Shown here in pieces: positions 30,155 through 60,035 of a stretch of DNA of 64,000 nucleotides (position 1 is the first letter of the stretch; every line of letters starts with the position of its first letter). This stretch comes from Clostridiales bacterium (GTDB taxonomy: Bacteria > Bacillota > Clostridia > Christensenellales > Borkfalkiaceae): positions 1 to 64,000 of the forward strand of contig SVIJ01000002.1 of NCBI GenBank assembly GCA_015069565.1, read 5' to 3'. The notes beneath the pieces are model-generated. The model did not search any database. It was given only the letters and a program-made list of their open reading frames with translations, and was not told the origin of the DNA. A program made the translations under genes and the position numbers.

Positions 30155-30218
30155 GAGTGAATGGAACGCTGTGCGTTTGCAAAACGCAATTCACGATTGC
30201 CGTAGGCAATCAATTCAC
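30155..30218. repeat. Family 1 hairpin-array repeat, copy B (short)
   Basis: AGTGAATGGAACGC, then GCGTTT-GC-AAAACGC, AATTCAC, GATTGCC-GTA-GGCAATC and ATTCAC. It consists of the two ends of the element with the middle missing. Confidence 0.85.
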
Positions 30219-30225
30219 ATATAAA

Positions 30226-30258
30226 AAAGGAAGGTCCAAAGACCTTCCTTTTTTGTTT
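30226..30258. terminator. Bidirectional terminator, flavoprotein / YwaF-like gene
   Basis: AAAAAAGGAAGGTC / GACCTTCCTTTTTT stem with a CAAA loop. A near-identical copy is at 31686-31718. Confidence 0.9.
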
Positions 30259-30267
30259 TACTTTCGC

Positions 30268-31329
30268 TTATTGTCTGATGGTGAACTGATAAATCTTTTC
30301 CATCAAGCCGTCGGGAATTTCATCCCGCAGGCTGCCGAGCTTGACGAAGATTTGACGGAAGAACAGCTTGTTCTCACCGCCGATTTCGTATTCGGGGAGC
30401 TGAACGTCTAAATCCTTAGAGAGTAGCTGCAAGAACTGTTCTTTTTCTTGCTCGGAAAGAGTGGAAAGAAAGGCGTCTTCTTTGCCTTCGTCTTTCGTTG
30501 CGTTGTCTTCCGCTTCTGCGACGGCAACCGCCGCTACGGGCGTGCAGGTAGGCGCATCTTCCGCCTTTGCCGTTCTTTTCTTCTTGCCTGCAATCAAGCC
30601 GTAAATCGCGTAGAAGGCGAGTATATAGACGAAGAACAAGCCTACGACGATCAAGGGATAGAACACGGGATGACCGTTTACGAGATTGAAGAAAATGTCG
30701 TAAGGCGTGCCGTCGCCGCGCATCAGGAACATATAGTTATAATCCAGCGTGACGTTTGCAACGTACGCCAAGACGCAAAAGCTCGTCAAAATGCCCAAGC
30801 AAATAAGAATATTTCCCTTCTTCATGCTTGCCATACCCGAGAAAAGAATGTACAGGGATGCAAAGCCCGAGATGGAGTGGGTGATGCCCGAAACGATATT
30901 CGGCCACGAAAGAACGGGATAAGCGCTGTAATTTTGCGCCGCGCCGTAAGTTCCCATCACCGCGCCCAAAATCCCGAAAATGAGCACGAAATCTAAGGAT
31001 GCGTTTTTCAGCTTTCCTTTGGAGAATGCCGCAAGGGGAATGGCAATCAGTTGGATACTGCACAGGAACAAGGGGAGCATTCTACGCAAGGGCTCAATCG
31101 AGCCTTCCAAGCTGCATCCGATGATGATTTTTGCCAGCTCAAAGCCGTCGATGAGAATCGCCGCCCAAATCATCACGCGGTTTTTTGCCTTGTATTCTTG
31201 GTTTTTGTACCGTTTTCCAAGGAAGATTGCAGCCAAAACCATAATCACCATCAGGGTGGTGACAAACGTCAAATGTTGCCAGGAGTACGCGCCCTGCGCT
31301 TCGCCTGAGCCGCTTAAAAACTCTTTCAT
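30268..31329 (-). CDS. YwaF-like multi-pass membrane protein with conserved C-terminal tail domain
   Basis: The 353-residue protein starts YSWQHLTFVTTLMVIMV and has about seven hydrophobic segments over residues 15-255, including WPNIVSGITHSISGFASLYILF, like the TIGR02206/YwaF membrane family of unknown function. After a charged linker comes a tail of about 80 residues (FLSTLSEQEKEQFLQLL ... PEYEIGGENKLFFRQIFV ... IPDGLMEKIYQFTIRQ), which is also the end of the neighbouring membrane protein. ATG 31329 is chosen; the track's extra residues cover promoter and repeat. The tail probably faces the cytoplasm. Confidence 0.75.
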   Translation of the reverse strand: MKEFLSGSGEAQGAYSWQHLTFVTTLMVIMVLAAIFLGKRYKNQEYKAKNRVMIWAAILIDGFELAKIIIGCSLEGSIEPLRRMLPLFLCSIQLIAIPLAAFSKGKLKNASLDFVLIFGILGAVMGTYGAAQNYSAYPVLSWPNIVSGITHSISGFASLYILFSGMASMKKGNILICLGILTSFCVLAYVANVTLDYNYMFLMRGDGTPYDIFFNLVNGHPVFYPLIVVGLFFVYILAFYAIYGLIAGKKKRTAKAEDAPTCTPVAAVAVAEAEDNATKDEGKEDAFLSTLSEQEKEQFLQLLSKDLDVQLPEYEIGGENKLFFRQIFVKLGSLRDEIPDGLMEKIYQFTIRQ

Positions 31330-31369
31330 AACCAACCGCCTTTGTCGAAAATTGTCGAACCTTATTCCC

Positions 31370-31398
31370 ATTGTAGCAAATCCCCACGGCTTTGTCAA
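31370..31398 (-). promoter_or_regulatory. Promoter of the YwaF-like gene
   Basis: Minus strand TTGACA, 17 bp, TACAAT; leader about 34 nt. Confidence 0.8.
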
Positions 31399-31461
31399 GA
31401 GATAGGCATAACGTAGATGAGTGATTTCTCTTTCCGCAATACGAAAAGTCCGCGCCGCACC

Positions 31462-31485
31462 GTAGGGCGGGGGCTTGCTCCCGCC
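31462..31485 (+). repeat. GTAG-headed REP-like hairpin
   Basis: GTAG then GGCGGG-GGCTTGCT-CCCGCC. It is followed by a segment (AGTTGTCCTTACGGACAAGC and on to about 31545) that also occurs at 5665-5720. Confidence 0.7.
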
Positions 31486-31540
31486 GTGAACGATAGTTGT
31501 CCTTACGGACAAGCGCGATTACGCTTATGGCGTAGCGATA

Positions 31541-31682
31541 TGTTTGCTGTTGGCAAACGTTGTGGGGGAATTTATAATAATTCCATAACGCAAGGCAACG
31601 CCTTGCAATGCACGACGGCACAGCCGTCAATTCACGCGTTTGTAAAACGCAATTCACGATTGCCTACGGCAATCCATTCACA
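31541..31682. repeat. Family 1 hairpin-array repeat, copy C
   Basis: Contains GTTTGC-TGTT-GGCAAAC, a central GGAATT-TATAAT-AATTCC, GCAAGGC-AAC-GCCTTGC, GACGGC-ACA-GCCGTC, GCGTTT-GTA-AAACGC and GATTGCC-TAC-GGCAATC, the last ones separated by AATTCAC (once ATGCAC). With the REP and the YwaF promoter it fills the 400-bp gap. Confidence 0.9.
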
Positions 31683-31685
31683 TAT

Positions 31686-31718
31686 AAAAAAGGAAGGTCC
31701 GAAGACCTTCCTTTTTTG
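31686..31718. terminator. Terminator of the second tail-domain membrane protein gene
   Basis: Same AAAAAAGGAAGGTC / GACCTTCCTTTTTT hairpin as at 30226, with a CGAA loop instead. Confidence 0.88.
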
Positions 31719-31730
31719 TTTTACTTTCGC

Positions 31731-33119
31731 TTATTGTCTGATGGTGAACTGATAAATCTTTTCCATCAAGCCGTCGGGGATTCTTGCGCGCAAGCTACCG
31801 AGATTTACGAAAATCTTACGGAAGAATACCTTGTTGTCGCCGCCGATCTTGTATTCGGGGATTTCAGGCAGCTTGTTTTCCGAGCGGAGCAAGAAGATTT
31901 GCGTAAACTGCGTTCTTTCTTCTGCCGTAAGGGTTGCGATGAACGCGTCGAATTCGCTGCCGTAAGCGTCGCTGTCTACGGGAGCTTCTTCTGCTACGGG
32001 TTCTTCTGCAACAGCTTCTTCTACGGGAGCTTCTTCAACGACTTCTTCCACAGGCGCTTCTTCAACGACTTCTTCTACGGGAGCTTCTTCCACAGCTTCC
32101 GCTTCAGCCGCTTTCTTTGCTTTCTTCGCCTTCTTACGTCTTACGCTGACGATCGTGGATTCCAAAATGAGCATCAAAAGTGCAGCGCCAGCCGCGATGA
32201 TGCCGTAGATAAGGAAACCTGCAAGCGCTTCCACAAGGAAGGAAAGCACGATGATGCCTGCGCCAAGCAGGAGCATGATAACGCAACGGATAACGTCCGC
32301 GCCGTATACTTTCTTTGCGGAGATGCCAGCGAATGCGAGCATAACGAACAGAGCATAAGCGCAAACCACGCCAAGCGCAATCCACTTATAGAGAGCGTTT
32401 TCAGCGAACAAGCCTTGAACTGCCGTGTTTTCTACGGAAATAGCGTAGATAACGACGCCTGCGGATGCAACCGTAAGCAAGAAGATAAGCAAGCCTACGA
32501 AAGCACGAGCGCCCGACTTGATTGCGGACATGATTACGTAAAGCACCAAGGTGAACGCCGCGATGCCAAGGATTACGTAGTCAAGCGTAGCCATGATGTC
32601 CTGACCGTAGTATGCGTAGGGCAAAAGCAAGGACAGCGCGTAGCCAGTGTAAACGCCGAATTCAACGTAGATGATGAATCTTGCGATAGAAGGAGCAGCC
32701 TTACCGCAGAAGAGTGCGATAATGGATGCAAGCAAGCAAACCACCATGGAAACGGGCACGAGATAGAGCATTACGCTTGCCGAAATACCCAGGATACTGG
32801 TGTTGGTGGTCATCAAAGGAACTACGCCAAACAGCTTGGAAACTGCATAGCCGTCTTCGGTGAACATCTTGATGAACATATCAAGGAGCTTATTGTTTTC
32901 AACAATAAAAGCGCCTTCCTTGTACGCCAAGGTCTTCATTTCCAAGAAATAGAACACTGCGATCGGCGCGATTGCAAGGAGCAAAGCGAGCAAACGATAG
33001 AAGATGTTCTTTTTCTTCTTGGGAGCTGCGGGAGCTTCGGAAACTTCGGGAGCGGCGATGAATTCAGTCAATTCTTCGTTGGTCGCTTCGAGTTCTGCAA
33101 CGGGAGTTTTGGTACTCAT
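31731..33119 (-). CDS. Multi-pass membrane protein with acidic repeats and the same C-terminal tail domain
   Basis: The 462-residue protein has a short cytoplasmic N-terminus, about eight hydrophobic segments over residues 38-330, a basic stretch (RRKKAKKAKK), a repetitive acidic linker (EEAPVEEVVEEAPVEE) and a C-terminal tail of about 80 residues nearly shared with the YwaF-like neighbour (PEYKIGGDNKVFFRKIFVNLGSLRARIPDG, then the same last 12 residues). The membrane part is not YwaF-like and is not recognised. ATG 33119 follows AAAAAGGAGAG. The nucleotide similarity of the two 3' ends continues into the terminators, indicating a recent 3'-end duplication or exchange. Confidence 0.7.
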   Translation of the reverse strand: MSTKTPVAELEATNEELTEFIAAPEVSEAPAAPKKKKNIFYRLLALLLAIAPIAVFYFLEMKTLAYKEGAFIVENNKLLDMFIKMFTEDGYAVSKLFGVVPLMTTNTSILGISASVMLYLVPVSMVVCLLASIIALFCGKAAPSIARFIIYVEFGVYTGYALSLLLPYAYYGQDIMATLDYVILGIAAFTLVLYVIMSAIKSGARAFVGLLIFLLTVASAGVVIYAISVENTAVQGLFAENALYKWIALGVVCAYALFVMLAFAGISAKKVYGADVIRCVIMLLLGAGIIVLSFLVEALAGFLIYGIIAAGAALLMLILESTIVSVRRKKAKKAKKAAEAEAVEEAPVEEVVEEAPVEEVVEEAPVEEAVAEEPVAEEAPVDSDAYGSEFDAFIATLTAEERTQFTQIFLLRSENKLPEIPEYKIGGDNKVFFRKIFVNLGSLRARIPDGLMEKIYQFTIRQ

Positions 33120-33425: not shown

Positions 33426-34421
33426 ATGACGGAAAAAATCACGGCGGAAATAAAAGCCCGCTTTTACGTGGACGCGACGGTGGAAAAACGCGCGAAGGAG
33501 CACGCAAAAGCGGATGAAAAATGGTGGACGGAAGGGGATAGCGTATGCTTCCGCTTTCCCTATAAGGGAAGCGAGTATGTCGGCACGCTGGCAGGCGCGA
33601 CGGAAGGCAATCGCAGTATCGCGGCTTTGCTTGTCAGCTATTTTGAAACGGAAGACGACCGTCAATCCGAGCTTTCCAAAAACGACGGCTGGCGGAAGGT
33701 GTTGCTCGGGGAAGGTACGGTGCGGACGGTATTCCGCTTTTTAGCAAAGCATTCCATTAAGAATTGCCCCTGCTTCGTCTTGGCGATCCGCGTTCCTAAG
33801 CTTTTGGAAAGGGCTATGGAAACGCTGACGCAGTATTCGGACGTATCTTCGGATGCGGTGGTGCGGATGGACGAGCAGACGGTGGCGCTCGTGCGCTTTT
33901 CGCAGGTGGACGAGAGTGAAGAATACCAGTCTTCCTTTGAGTTTGGCGAATTCGTGGCGCAGTTTTTGAAAGAAGAGCTGGGGCTGGACGCAACCGTGGG
34001 CGTAGGCTCGACGGTGAAGGAAGTCAAGGACGCGTCTATCTCTTACGCGCAAGCGTATAACGCTTTGCGTTATGCCGACACCTTCGCGGCGCGCGGCAGG
34101 GTACATTCCTATCGCGAGTTCGTGCTCGTGAAGATGGTGGAAGAGCTGTCGGCAATCAAGCAGGAAGAATACCGTGGGGAGCTGATGGACGCTTCCGCGC
34201 AGGAAGTGTTTGAAGACGAAGAGCTGCTTGCCACGGCGGAAGAGTTTTTGCTCTCCGATTTGAACGTCAGCGAAACGTCCCGAAACCTGTATATGCACCG
34301 CAATACCCTTTCTTATCGGCTAGATAAAATCGAGAAGGCGACGGGGCTGAACATTCGGCATTTCTCGGACGCGGTTTCCTTCCGATTGCTGTCCGTCTTG
34401 TACAAGATTTTGTATAAATAA
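33426..34421 (+). CDS. CdaR/PucR-type transcriptional regulator
   Basis: The 331-residue protein ends with the PucR C-terminal HTH (LLSDLNVSETSRNLYMHRNTLSYRLDKIEKATGLNIRHFSDAVSFRLL, about residues 275-325). The middle (about 135-260) looks like the CdaR GGDEF-like domain (FGEFVAQFLKEELGLDATVGVGSTVKEV, SYAQAYNALRYADTF). The N-terminal region is not a recognised sensor. Such proteins usually activate sugar-acid or amino-acid genes, but no obvious target is adjacent; the divergent membrane protein gene is a candidate. Own promoter and terminator. Confidence 0.83.
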   Translation: MTEKITAEIKARFYVDATVEKRAKEHAKADEKWWTEGDSVCFRFPYKGSEYVGTLAGATEGNRSIAALLVSYFETEDDRQSELSKNDGWRKVLLGEGTVRTVFRFLAKHSIKNCPCFVLAIRVPKLLERAMETLTQYSDVSSDAVVRMDEQTVALVRFSQVDESEEYQSSFEFGEFVAQFLKEELGLDATVGVGSTVKEVKDASISYAQAYNALRYADTFAARGRVHSYREFVLVKMVEELSAIKQEEYRGELMDASAQEVFEDEELLATAEEFLLSDLNVSETSRNLYMHRNTLSYRLDKIEKATGLNIRHFSDAVSFRLLSVLYKILYK

Positions 34422-56109: not shown

Positions 56110-56466
56110 TCAGTATTTAATCACCACTTTAATTTCGCCGTCGGGGGTGACGGTGCGGGAAATGCTGACGCTGTCCACCAAGAACAAGCCCCGTCCGCTT
56201 TCGGCGGTGGGAGAAGAGCAGACGCTCTTTTCAGGCGGGAAAAACGCATGGGTCGAGCGAACGTAAATTTCCACGCAACCGTTTGCAATCACGCTGTTCA
56301 TCGTCGCGTAGCCGTCCGAATGGCGCAACACGTTGCCGACGAGCTCGTTGACGACCAAACGGCAGTCGAACACCTTTTCGTTGGGTACGGCGTGCGCTTC
56401 CAAATGCTTGCAAAGCGTTTGGGTGGCGTTTTTCAGGTCGGTGGTGGTTCTCACTTCAAACCGCAT
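56110..56466 (-). CDS. GHKL-type anti-sigma / serine kinase (RsbW-like)
   Basis: The 118-residue ATPase has the N box VVNELVGNVLRH (about residue 42) and the G1-like SGRGLFLVDSVS, so ATP binding looks intact. It resembles the HATPase_c_2 group that includes RsbW/SpoIIAB anti-sigma kinases. It is the last gene of the STAS-GHKL-sigma-GHKL string. Because the upstream paralogue at 57232 has lost its N box, this copy is the better candidate for the active kinase or sigma binder. The partner assignment is inference. Confidence 0.8.
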   Translation of the reverse strand: MRFEVRTTTDLKNATQTLCKHLEAHAVPNEKVFDCRLVVNELVGNVLRHSDGYATMNSVIANGCVEIYVRSTHAFFPPEKSVCSSPTAESGRGLFLVDSVSISRTVTPDGEIKVVIKY

Positions 56467-56499
56467 CGTTTTCTCTCCTTTGTTCTTATTTTTATGCGT

Positions 56500-57228
56500 T
56501 TACAATAGATTTTTTAACCGTTCTTTGAGCTTTGCAAGCGCCTTGCGCTCCATACGCGAAACGGTCATCTGGGAAACGTTCAGGCGCGACGCCGTTTCCG
56601 TTTGCGAAAGGTTTTCGATAAACCGAAGCTGTAAGATTTTTCGTTCGAGCTCGGGGAAATCATCCATTGCCGCCGCGAGCGTTTCTCTAAGTTCCAACCG
56701 TTCAAAGCCGCTATCCTGCGCGGGGAGCAAATCCCCCAGCGTCCTGCCGTCTTCATCGCCGCCGACCTGCTGATCGAGCGATACCGTGCCGCCGACTTCG
56801 AGCGCTTCGATCACTTCTTCTTCGGATAAATTGAGCGCCGCCGCGATGGTGCGGACTTCGGGCACGGAGCCGTTTTCTGCAAGATACCGTTCGGCAAAGC
56901 GGCGGATATCCAAGTTAAGCTCGCTCAATTTTCTCGGCACTTTCACCATTCTTGCGTGGTCGCGGAAGTAGTTTTTCAGCTTGCCCGTAATCGTGGGAGT
57001 GGCGAACGTCGAGAACTGCAATCCGCGCGCTTCGTCAAAGCTGTCGATCGCTTCCAAAAGATACATGGTGGCTTCCTGCACCAAATCTTCATACGCAACG
57101 CCGCGGCCTACGAACTTCTTGGCGAGAATCTCGGCTATGTACAGGTATTTTTCAGCGATTTGGTTGCGAATGGCAACGTCCTTCGTCTGCCTGTATTTTG
57201 TAAAAAGTTCGTGAATATTCTCGGACAT
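56500..57228 (-). CDS. SigB/SigF-type RNA polymerase sigma factor
   Basis: A sigma-70 group 3 factor of 242 residues with region 2 (YLYIAEILAKKFVGRGVAYEDLVQEATMYLLEAIDSFDEARGLQFSTFATPTITGKLKNYFRDHARMVKVPR contains the 2.1-2.4 pattern), region 3 (VRTIAAALNLSEEEVIEAL) and region 4 HTH (LSQTETASRLNVSQMTVSRMERKALAKLK). It resembles stress (SigB) or sporulation (SigF/SigG) sigma factors. The upstream STAS and GHKL genes are the typical partner-switch regulators. No other sporulation gene is in the window, so a general stress role is as likely. The ATG lies 3 bases after the upstream stop. Confidence 0.9.
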   Translation of the reverse strand: MSENIHELFTKYRQTKDVAIRNQIAEKYLYIAEILAKKFVGRGVAYEDLVQEATMYLLEAIDSFDEARGLQFSTFATPTITGKLKNYFRDHARMVKVPRKLSELNLDIRRFAERYLAENGSVPEVRTIAAALNLSEEEVIEALEVGGTVSLDQQVGGDEDGRTLGDLLPAQDSGFERLELRETLAAAMDDFPELERKILQLRFIENLSQTETASRLNVSQMTVSRMERKALAKLKERLKNLL

Positions 57229-57231
57229 GGG

Positions 57232-57585
57232 TTAACCTTCAAATGCAATCGCGAGCACTTTGCCCGTTTCATCCTTTTCGTATTCTACGTTTCCGATGAG
57301 CGCGGAAAGCAGGGCGTAGGAAATCTCATCCGTTTCGTCCATCGAAGGCGCGCCAGCGTCTTCACCGACGAGCTTGCAGGCAAGCGTTTCGCCTACGCGG
57401 AAGGTCAGGCTTGCGCTCGAAAAGCCGTTGCGCTGTAAAATGAGCAGGGCTTCCGTCACGCACACCTTGTAGTCTTCGGCAGAGTCTACGTCAAAGCCAG
57501 CCACCGAGCAAAGTCCGCCGACGGTGAGTCTTACCGTGGTCATATATTCCCCGTTGAGGGGCATTTTGATCGAAAAAACGTTCAT
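57232..57585 (-). CDS. Degenerate RsbW-like anti-sigma factor
   Basis: The 117-residue protein (from ATG 57585 behind GGAGATTGTGTAAT; the track has 57594) keeps the first half of the RsbW fold (PLNGEYMTTVRLTVGGLCSVAGFDVDSAEDYKVCVTEALL). The N-box Asn expected after EA (EACTNAI in the family) is missing, and no G1/G2 glycine boxes are seen. It probably cannot bind ATP in the usual way but may still bind the STAS protein or the sigma factor. It lies between the STAS and sigma genes, the usual place of the anti-sigma gene. Confidence 0.7.
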   Translation of the reverse strand: MNVFSIKMPLNGEYMTTVRLTVGGLCSVAGFDVDSAEDYKVCVTEALLILQRNGFSSASLTFRVGETLACKLVGEDAGAPSMDETDEISYALLSALIGNVEYEKDETGKVLAIAFEG

Positions 57586-57586
57586 A

Positions 57587-57895
57587 TTACACAATCTCCA
57601 TACGGCTACCGAGCGCGCAGATCGCGAACAGTTTTTTGATGCGCGCCTGCAACCCGAGCAGGCGTACGCGGTTGCCGTCCTTTTCCGTAAGCTTGGAAAT
57701 TTTTACAAACACGCCGAGCGTGGTGCTGTCGATGAAGGCAAGATCGGTGCAATCAAAAGCGATCGTGCGCTTGTTTTCGTTGTACGCGCTTTCCACAACG
57801 GCGAAAAAATCGTCCGCGTTGCCCACGTCGATGTCCCCCGAAAGGGCAATTTTCAGCTCGTCGTTTTCCACGCCGAGTACGGTGATTTCTTTCAT
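57587..57895 (-). CDS. STAS-domain anti-anti-sigma factor
   Basis: The 102-residue STAS protein (RsbV/SpoIIAA type) has KIALSGDIDVGNADDFFAVV and the phosphorylation site DLAFIDSTTLGVFVKI, where the Ser after ID is the usual kinase target. When unphosphorylated it should bind the anti-sigma partner and free the sigma factor. It is the first gene of the operon. Confidence 0.9.
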   Translation of the reverse strand: MKEITVLGVENDELKIALSGDIDVGNADDFFAVVESAYNENKRTIAFDCTDLAFIDSTTLGVFVKISKLTEKDGNRVRLLGLQARIKKLFAICALGSRMEIV

Positions 57896-57939
57896 TTAAG
57901 TATACCCCCTGTTAGGTTAGATCTTACTAATTTGTTTAT

Positions 57940-57968
57940 AAACAAAAAACGCGTTTTTTCAAACGCAT
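57940..57968 (-). terminator. Terminator of the tsaD-permease operon
   Basis: On the minus strand GCGTTT-GAAA-AAACGC followed by GTTTTTTG. Confidence 0.75.
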
Positions 57969-57969
57969 T

Positions 57970-58977
57970 TTATAGAATTCCTGCAAAAATCAGGTTGCAA
58001 AGCAGCCCAACCACCACGGCAACGGCATACAGCACGCCGATCAAAATCAAGTTGCGCTTCCATCTTCGCGTGTTGCGAAGGAGCACCACAAAGCCGAGCC
58101 CTGCGTTCGCGCAAAGCCCTGCGACGCAGCTGCCGAAGGCAATCGTTCCGTCCAAAAACGCGGTGGTGATAAAGACGGACGACGCGCAGTTGGGGATCAG
58201 CCCGACCAAGGACACGAGCAGGGGCTGTAAAAGCAGGTGTTTACTCATGAACGCGGTGAAGTTGGCTTCCCCCACAAAGTGGATAATTGCGCCGAGTACG
58301 AAATTGAAAGCGAACATCAACGCGGCAATTTTCAAGGCGTGCAAAATCGGGCCTACCACGTAGGTCATAAAGGGGCGGTTGTCGTCGTGCGGCCTTCCGC
58401 AGGAGCAGCCTTCTTCCACGCCCATGTCTTCAAAGTACCGAACCATGAAAATTTCGTGGACGGTTTCGGGGGCTCTTGCGCCCGTCACGGCGTCGATAGA
58501 ACGGGCTTCAAGGCGTACCTGCCCCCGTCCTATGAGTTTTAACAGCCCATCTGCGGCATAGCCAACGCCGATGCCGACGACGATTTTTATCGCCACCATA
58601 CTCAGCACGGAAATGGCGGCGTTTGCGTTCCCCGACGAGAGCATAATGATAAACGCTTCGTCGCTTGTGGATAAGAAAATGGCAAGCAAAGTGCCCACCG
58701 TGATGTATTTTTGTTCGTAGAGCTTTGCCGCCAAAACGGAAAATCCGCATTGCGGAATCAAACCCGTTGCCGAGCCGATCACAGGCCCTAATTTGCCCCC
58801 TAATTTTCCCGAAGTGGCAAGGCTCGTCTTGTTTTCCAGTAGCTGTAAAACAACGTAAATCAGAAGCAGCCAAGGGAGCAGGGGAAGGGTGTCTAAAAAG
58901 GCGTGGGAAGTATTTTCCCACAGGAATTCCCAAAAGGTGTGCGTTTCGTGCGCGGCGTGCAAAAAAAGGTGGCTCAT
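57970..58977 (-). CDS. Multi-pass permease of the ArsP_2 / putative manganese transporter family
   Basis: The 335-residue protein has about ten hydrophobic segments in two similar halves, each with a conserved loop (GLIPQCGFSVLAAKLYEQKYITVGTLLAIFLSTSDEAFII; later GLIPNCASSVFITTAFLDGTIAFG). Between them is a cytosolic Cys/His/Asp-rich stretch (EEGCSCGRPHDDNRPF) that could bind metal. This matches the PF11449 putative heavy-metal/manganese exporter family. ATG 58977 overlaps the tsaD stop (ATGA), so it is translationally coupled to tsaD. Confidence 0.83.
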   Translation of the reverse strand: MSHLFLHAAHETHTFWEFLWENTSHAFLDTLPLLPWLLLIYVVLQLLENKTSLATSGKLGGKLGPVIGSATGLIPQCGFSVLAAKLYEQKYITVGTLLAIFLSTSDEAFIIMLSSGNANAAISVLSMVAIKIVVGIGVGYAADGLLKLIGRGQVRLEARSIDAVTGARAPETVHEIFMVRYFEDMGVEEGCSCGRPHDDNRPFMTYVVGPILHALKIAALMFAFNFVLGAIIHFVGEANFTAFMSKHLLLQPLLVSLVGLIPNCASSVFITTAFLDGTIAFGSCVAGLCANAGLGFVVLLRNTRRWKRNLILIGVLYAVAVVVGLLCNLIFAGIL

Positions 58978-60035
58978 ACTTTGTCCCCCGTTTTCCAAGT
59001 CGCGGAAAGGGGAATGGACGCTTTCGCGTTCAAGTCCATCTTCGCAAAGTTCCCCAAACGGTATTGCACCAAGCCTTCGGAAGCGATCATTGCCGCGTTG
59101 TCCGTGCAGTAGCGTTTTTCAGGCAGGACAAGCTTCAAGCCTTCCTTTTGGCAAGCGGCGTACAGGGTTAGGCGCAGATAATCGTTCGCCGCGACGCCGC
59201 CGCCGACGGTGACGGTGTCCACCCCCGTTTCCTTTGCCGCCATAATCGTCTTTTCCACGAGCACGTCGATTGCGGCGCATTGAAAGGAGCAAGCCACGTC
59301 CGCTTTGGAGAAGTCTTCCCCCTTTTGTTTTTTGGTGTTGCAGTAGTTGATTACCGCCGTCTTTAAGCCGCTATACGAGAAGTTGTATCCGCCGCCACCT
59401 TTGAGCATCTTGGGCATGGGAATACAGGGCGAGCCGTCCATCGCGCACCGTTGTACGTTCGGGCCGCCAGGGTATTTGAGCCCCAAAACGCGCGCCACCT
59501 TGTCGAAGGCTTCGCCTGCGGCGTCGTCGAGCGTCGCGCCTAAGATTTCAAACTCCGCTTCCGTCTTTGCGTACAGGATTGCGGTGTGACCGCCACTTGC
59601 AAGCAGGGTGACGAAGGGTGGCTTTAACGCTTTTTCCACAAGATACGCCGCCGCGATATGTCCACGAATATGGTTGACGGCGATGAGCGGTTTGTTTAAG
59701 GCGTATGCAAATGCTTTCGCAAAGGAAACGCCGACGAGCAACGCTCCCAACAGCCCTGCGCCGTAGGTGACGGCAACCGCGTCGATTTGGTCGTAGGTAA
59801 TCCCAGCCTTCTTGACGGCGCGCGAAACGACGTCCGCAACGGCATCGGTATGCGCGCGGGACGCGATTTCGGGCACTACGCCCCCGAACAGCGCCTGCGT
59901 AGACGCGGAAGACGCGATCTCATCGGACAGGATTTCCCTGCCGCGAATCACCGCCGCCGCCGTTTCGTCACAGGACGATTCAATCCCCAAAATAACGGGA
60001 TCTTTTTTTGTTGGGTCAAAAGTAGGATTATACAT
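58974..60035 (-). CDS. tsaD: tRNA threonylcarbamoyltransferase TsaD
   Basis: TsaD transfers the threonylcarbamoyl group to A37 of ANN-reading tRNAs (t6A) with TsaB/TsaE. The 353-residue protein has ILGIESSCDETAAAVI, GGVVPEIASRAH, the metal-binding NHIRGHIAA (HxxxH), LASGGHT, GGVAANDYLR and the late CTDNAAMIA, all expected. ATG 60035 is preferred; the track's 18 additional residues come from family 1 copy F. TrmO, which further methylates t6A, is encoded at 12857. tsaB and tsaE are not in the window. Confidence 0.95.
   Translation of the reverse strand: MYNPTFDPTKKDPVILGIESSCDETAAAVIRGREILSDEIASSASTQALFGGVVPEIASRAHTDAVADVVSRAVKKAGITYDQIDAVAVTYGAGLLGALLVGVSFAKAFAYALNKPLIAVNHIRGHIAAAYLVEKALKPPFVTLLASGGHTAILYAKTEAEFEILGATLDDAAGEAFDKVARVLGLKYPGGPNVQRCAMDGSPCIPMPKMLKGGGGYNFSYSGLKTAVINYCNTKKQKGEDFSKADVACSFQCAAIDVLVEKTIMAAKETGVDTVTVGGGVAANDYLRLTLYAACQKEGLKLVLPEKRYCTDNAAMIASEGLVQYRLGNFAKMDLNAKASIPLSATWKTGDKV

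Follow-up and report, generated by a model that had tools for sequence, protein, structure and literature searches.

Two adjacent genes in the stretch of DNA analysed here (the window, 64,000 nucleotides) encode membrane proteins that a sequence-only reading had described as sharing one C-terminal domain despite unrelated membrane parts. How did such different proteins come to end in the same tail, and what might that tail do? Both genes, and the domain at the end of each, were recovered at the following positions.

30268-31329, minus strand: P0001, a TMEM164-like membrane protein of 353 aa with ~6 predicted TM helices and the shared domain at its C-terminus (Pfam, hydropathy)
31731-33119, minus strand: P0002, 462 aa, ~8 TM helices (by inspection), with a lysine-rich N-terminus, an acidic linker and the shared domain
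30271-30498, minus strand: shared domain, copy 1, carried by the TMEM164-like protein and 3 residues shorter in the loop (profile A1, E 1.4e-26)
31734-31967, minus strand: shared domain, copy 2, the resident copy, with which P0002 ends (profile A1, E 7.7e-35)
31950-32129, minus strand: acidic linker, rich in Glu, Ala, Pro and Val, that joins the last TM helix of P0002 to the domain (from sequence; net charge ~-17)

The domain comprises ~75 residues and is predicted to be helical. Used as a query, the P0002 tail retrieved the TMEM164 tail with E 6.5e-25 at 63% identity, and on this comparison the homology of the two window tails is beyond doubt. The TMEM164 copy has three loop residues fewer than the P0002 copy and keeps 8/8 invariant positions. 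The last residues of the two proteins are identical as claimed, but the identical run is 16 residues long (IPDGLMEKIYQFTIRQ) and not 12. The membrane parts are indeed different: residues 15-240 of P0001 match Pfam PF14808 (TMEM164; E 3e-17, model positions 2-214 of 217) with 63.3 bits against a gathering cut-off of 25, while no Pfam family matched P0002. Against TIGR02206, which NCBIfam names TMEM164-related acyltransferase, P0001 scored 45.5 (E 5.4e-12), below the cut-off of 75. The likeness of P0001 to the TMEM164/TIGR02206 (YwaF-like) family thus lies in its membrane part, over 226 residues; unlike P0001, its relatives within the genus stop behind the last TM helix, at most with a short charged stretch added, and none carries the tail; this includes the closest of them, among which are seven at 57-65% identity. 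In both window carriers a lysine/arginine-rich stretch immediately follows the last TM helix, and because of this charge the tail is predicted to lie on the cytoplasmic side. An Ala/Glu-rich linker comes after this stretch in both proteins and is strongly acidic in P0002.

The domain was said to be unrecognised, and it had no match in Pfam, NCBIfam, PHROGs or PADLOC; a search for a significant Pfam or NCBIfam assignment among its members also gave none. It is not limited to the window pair either, since profile searches of the whole genome and its relatives placed it on many genomes. Within the source genome itself (1.27 Mb, 83% complete) a sensitive profile found only the two window copies, the search for a further copy giving just a chance-level match at G000:C47 (E 0.2). 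Within the genus it was matched in 54/57 genomes, at the end of the P0002 orthologue, and in all 12 of the genomes with a completeness of at least 90% and little contamination. It almost always occurs once per genome, nearly all of the 54 having one P0002 orthologue each, and the window P0002 tail is 93% identical to that of its nearest relative, G028. The domain is also present in other genera of the window's family and in three further families of the same order (f14, f18 and f32). A class-wide sample of 341 genomes, which happened to include none of the known f14, f18 or f32 domain genomes, gave matches solely within the window's family. When the larger unit described below was run against a phylum-wide sample, one weak match was obtained besides the window, to the C-terminal half only; in neither of these samples was the domain found outside the order. 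Given its presence throughout the genus, the restricted matches in these samples and the lack of any Pfam or NCBIfam assignment, the domain is conserved, lineage-restricted and unannotated, and not a local curiosity. It is a nearly universal and highly conserved feature of a genus of uncultured gut Clostridia.

The tail is by far the most conserved part of P0002. In an alignment of 36 orthologues all 13 invariant columns fall in the tail, and mean column conservation is 0.73 there against 0.39 in the TM region. Identity to the window protein is higher in the tail than in the TM region for 35/35 orthologues, with medians of 54% and 25%, respectively, and between P0002 and its G028 orthologue the tail has dN 0.04 with dS above 1. 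What is conserved about P0002 is therefore its tail. Because the membrane part drifts while the domain stays nearly constant, it would be the domain that does the conserved job, the membrane part serving mainly to place it at the membrane.

A clue to the fold comes from the sister families f14, f18 and f32, where the domain is followed by ~110 further residues resembling TPRs and forms the first half of a ~190-aa TPR-like unit; the tail corresponds to the N-cap and first hairpin of this unit. The description of a tail domain on different membrane proteins therefore fits the genus but not the sister families, whose carriers include soluble proteins of small size, proteins with a single TM helix and a membrane protein bearing Sel1-like repeats. 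Pfam TPR_1 was matched in 4/15 members of the larger unit (best E 4.2e-4), and kinesin light chain TPR matched with E 6.7e-5 at profile positions 136-169, which is the C-half, outside the tail half. The AlphaFold2 model of the unit (pLDDT 84, pTM 0.80) has TPR domains as its best Foldseek matches (probability 1.00, E 0.01). Its Z values of 10-11 against TPR solenoids do not exceed the threshold that the tool sets for helical models, helical solenoids matching widely.

Structure prediction for the tail alone gave a small helical domain (AlphaFold2, pLDDT 80), but this model had no match among PDB structures. Pfam detected a TPR family in 0/34 tail sequences, a search of solved structures with the tail sequence gave just chance-level matches to cytokine receptors, and no separate C-half, as in a split TPR, was found in the source genome. 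Thus, while the sister-family unit resembles TPR alpha-solenoids (HOP TPR2A, kinesin light chain TPR) in that its C-half matches TPRs and it is predicted to fold as a solenoid, the window tail has only the first hairpin and N-cap and, taken by itself, matches TPRs in neither sequence nor structure. Proteins of the window's family end after the first hairpin, whereas the sister families keep the whole predicted solenoid. Judging from the larger homologue, the tail most likely folds as the N-cap and first helical hairpin of a TPR-like solenoid. A resemblance to TerB_N (PF13208) was rejected at hhalign probabilities of 0.2% and 0.9%; no TerB_N member was found in 61 relatives, where the controls were equally silent.

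The TMEM164-like protein is not the only one besides P0002 to carry the tail. A SipW-like signal peptidase of genome G055 (E 1.5e-18 with the SipW model, below its cut-off) likewise has the domain at its end. A tree of the tails, built without the homogenised 3' end described below, joins the TMEM164 copy to the P0002 tails from G000 (the window), G028 and G056 (97/96), and the SipW copy with those of G055, G041 and G015 (100/100). Since each copy falls within its own sub-lineage, the tree indicates two independent captures, in which the 3' end of P0002 would have been duplicated and acquired by a TMEM164-like protein in the window and by a SipW-like protein in G055. As the TMEM164 copy branches outside the pair formed by the window and G028, this duplication may pre-date the split of the two, although the branch is long. 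The proposed spread by 3'-end duplication was borne out as far as capture of a gene's 3' end is concerned. The domain is, though, mainly the conserved end of one core protein, present once per genus genome, and its spread is thus rare.

The 3' ends of the two window genes add a second, later event, which involves the following features.

30173-30318, minus strand: homogenised tract, copy 1, comprising the last 16 codons, the terminator and a dispersed repeat
31636-31781, minus strand: homogenised tract, copy 2
30223-30254, no strand assigned: terminator hairpin with T run, after the TMEM164-tail gene
31686-31717, no strand assigned: terminator hairpin after P0002

As the sequence-only reading had noted, DNA similarity continues into the terminators: 30173-30398 and 31636-31861 are 89% identical, through the hairpins. 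Such similarity is far beyond chance: a 37-nt motif from the 3' coding part is present twice in the window, against 0.00 expected. Upstream of the residues IPDGLM the two copies agree at 29/53 residues and 25/53 third positions, approximately the divergence of different species, and from IPDGLM to the stop codon they agree at 16/16 residues and 15/16 third positions (binomial p 1e-4). The terminators of the two window copies are nearly identical, while those of G028 and G056 at this place are unrelated. The sharp jump in identity at IPDGLM, together with these terminators, is best explained by an old duplication of the domain followed by gene conversion of the 3' ends. A recent duplication of the whole domain is not borne out, the near-identity being confined to the later-homogenised 3' end. 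Behind both terminators, at 31636-31681 and 30173-30218, lies a dispersed ~46-nt repeat (GCGTTTGCAAAACGCAATTCACGATTGCC...). It has ~25 copies in the genome, so the outermost DNA similarity is not specific to the pair; the repeat possibly aids recombination.

The surroundings of P0002 are conserved among its relatives, where the P0002 orthologue has a divergent PucR-type regulator on one side and a convergent SigB-like operon on the other. The corresponding window features are as follows.

33426-34421, plus strand: PucR/CdaR-type regulator, divergent from P0002, a conserved neighbour (conserved gene order)
56113-59118, minus strand: SigB-like partner-switch operon, displaced by 22 kb in the window

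The G028 orthologue of the regulator matches HTH_30 (E 1.1e-14) and GGDEF_2 (E 7.4e-8). The operon encodes an ArsP_2 permease, a STAS protein, a degenerate RsbW-like protein, a SigB/F/G-family sigma factor and an RsbW-like HATPase. In the window the TMEM164-tail gene occupies the place vacated by the operon, and when gene order is compared with G028, one rearrangement breakpoint falls immediately behind P0002. Relative to G028 and G047, a segment of ~24 kb that reaches from P0002 to the SigB-like operon (window 31600-56113) is inverted or moved.

This location raises the question of whether the TMEM164 tail is a passive by-product of local rearrangement, functionless on its new carrier. The tail-less TMEM164 orthologues in the genus, the position of the gene at an inversion/translocation breakpoint beside P0002 and the repeat common to both 3' ends are all consistent with that. 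However, the TMEM164 tail has kept its frame and all invariant residues even though synonymous sites are saturated (dN 0.30, dS above 1), and it has thus been under selection. Passive acquisition also has to accommodate the second, independent capture and leaves the genus-wide tail unexplained, and we regard it as very improbable.

We lean, by a modest degree, towards a reading in which the domain is a tethered cytoplasmic protein-interaction (docking) module, a TPR-like first hairpin on a flexible linker, found on membrane proteins in one order of gut Clostridia. The core membrane protein P0002 would be its resident carrier. The fact that the tail is unannotated, nearly universal in the genus and captured at least twice suggests that it probably plugs its carriers into a shared partner, to which the captured copies would bring the TMEM164-like and SipW-like proteins as well. 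The sharing of the domain, its conservation and distribution, the independent captures, the 3' homogenisation and the predicted cytoplasmic side are the results on which this reading builds. A binding function, a TPR-like fold of the tail itself and one common partner are the steps it would add. Most species have one carrier per genome, so few genomes would have several proteins to recruit to one partner. Captured by membrane proteins that are unrelated, the domain would be a clear example of a tethered interaction domain reused in bacteria, and it offers a testable bait with which to search for the partner.

An intramolecular or self-association role of the tail fits as well. As a self-association module the tail would multimerise P0002, or pair the carriers, with no separate partner; the presence of one carrier in most genomes agrees with this, and by structural inference a single TPR-like hairpin exposes the edge that solenoids use for stacking. 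Against it, f14 has soluble carriers beside the membrane ones. Taken as a full account of the tail, self-association seems to us distinctly unlikely.

The neighbouring operon suggests a more specific partner for the docking module. The tail could be the membrane-side input of the SigB-like switch, binding RsbW/STAS or the degenerate RsbW-like protein and so tying sigma release to the membrane. At 48/52 genus loci, two of the exceptions lying at contig edges, and at 8/9 loci of other genera, the tail gene is convergent with the operon and lies within ~2.5 kb of it. Within the family, tail and degenerate RsbW-like gene occur together in 26 genomes, each without the other in 2 and 2, and neither in 4 (Fisher p 0.004). 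However, convergent genes are not co-transcribed, the wider gene order is conserved too, and the losses are phylogenetically clustered, three of the four genomes with neither gene belonging to one genus. In the order sample outside the family 50 genomes have the degenerate RsbW-like gene and no tail, families f14, f18 and f32 show the reverse, and in the window both persist with the operon 22 kb away. With losses clustered and each gene occurring without the other outside the family, the SigB link is a lead, and we consider the input role unlikely. The operon resembles SigB partner-switching systems (RsbV/RsbW/SigB) in its STAS, HATPase and SigB/F/G-family sigma components, whereas P0002 and its tail are joined to it by gene order and co-occurrence only; to our knowledge they are not part of any described SigB system. 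A bolder, decidedly improbable version would have the tail as a clade-specific plug, a truncated TPR-like solenoid, that connects the SigB-like stress switch with a core membrane sensor, the TMEM164-like and SipW-like enzymes having been wired in by capturing it. The domain is the mark of a core membrane protein, as yet uncharacterised, which may take part in the stress response of the genus.

The degenerate RsbW-like protein of the window (57235-57585, ~118 aa) is encoded between the STAS and sigma genes and has a conserved KVCxTE motif. It matches no Pfam family, has weak N-terminal similarity to RsbW and occurs in 78/396 genomes of the order. At one locus (L038, G006:C98) the whole tail-SigB region is present twice on one contig, as an inverted copy, probably an assembly artefact. 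At three loci from other families of the order (L170, L171 and L172) the STAS/RsbW-like/sigma module lies beside what looks, from reading the sequences, like a YggS/SepF/DivIVA/LspA division cluster.
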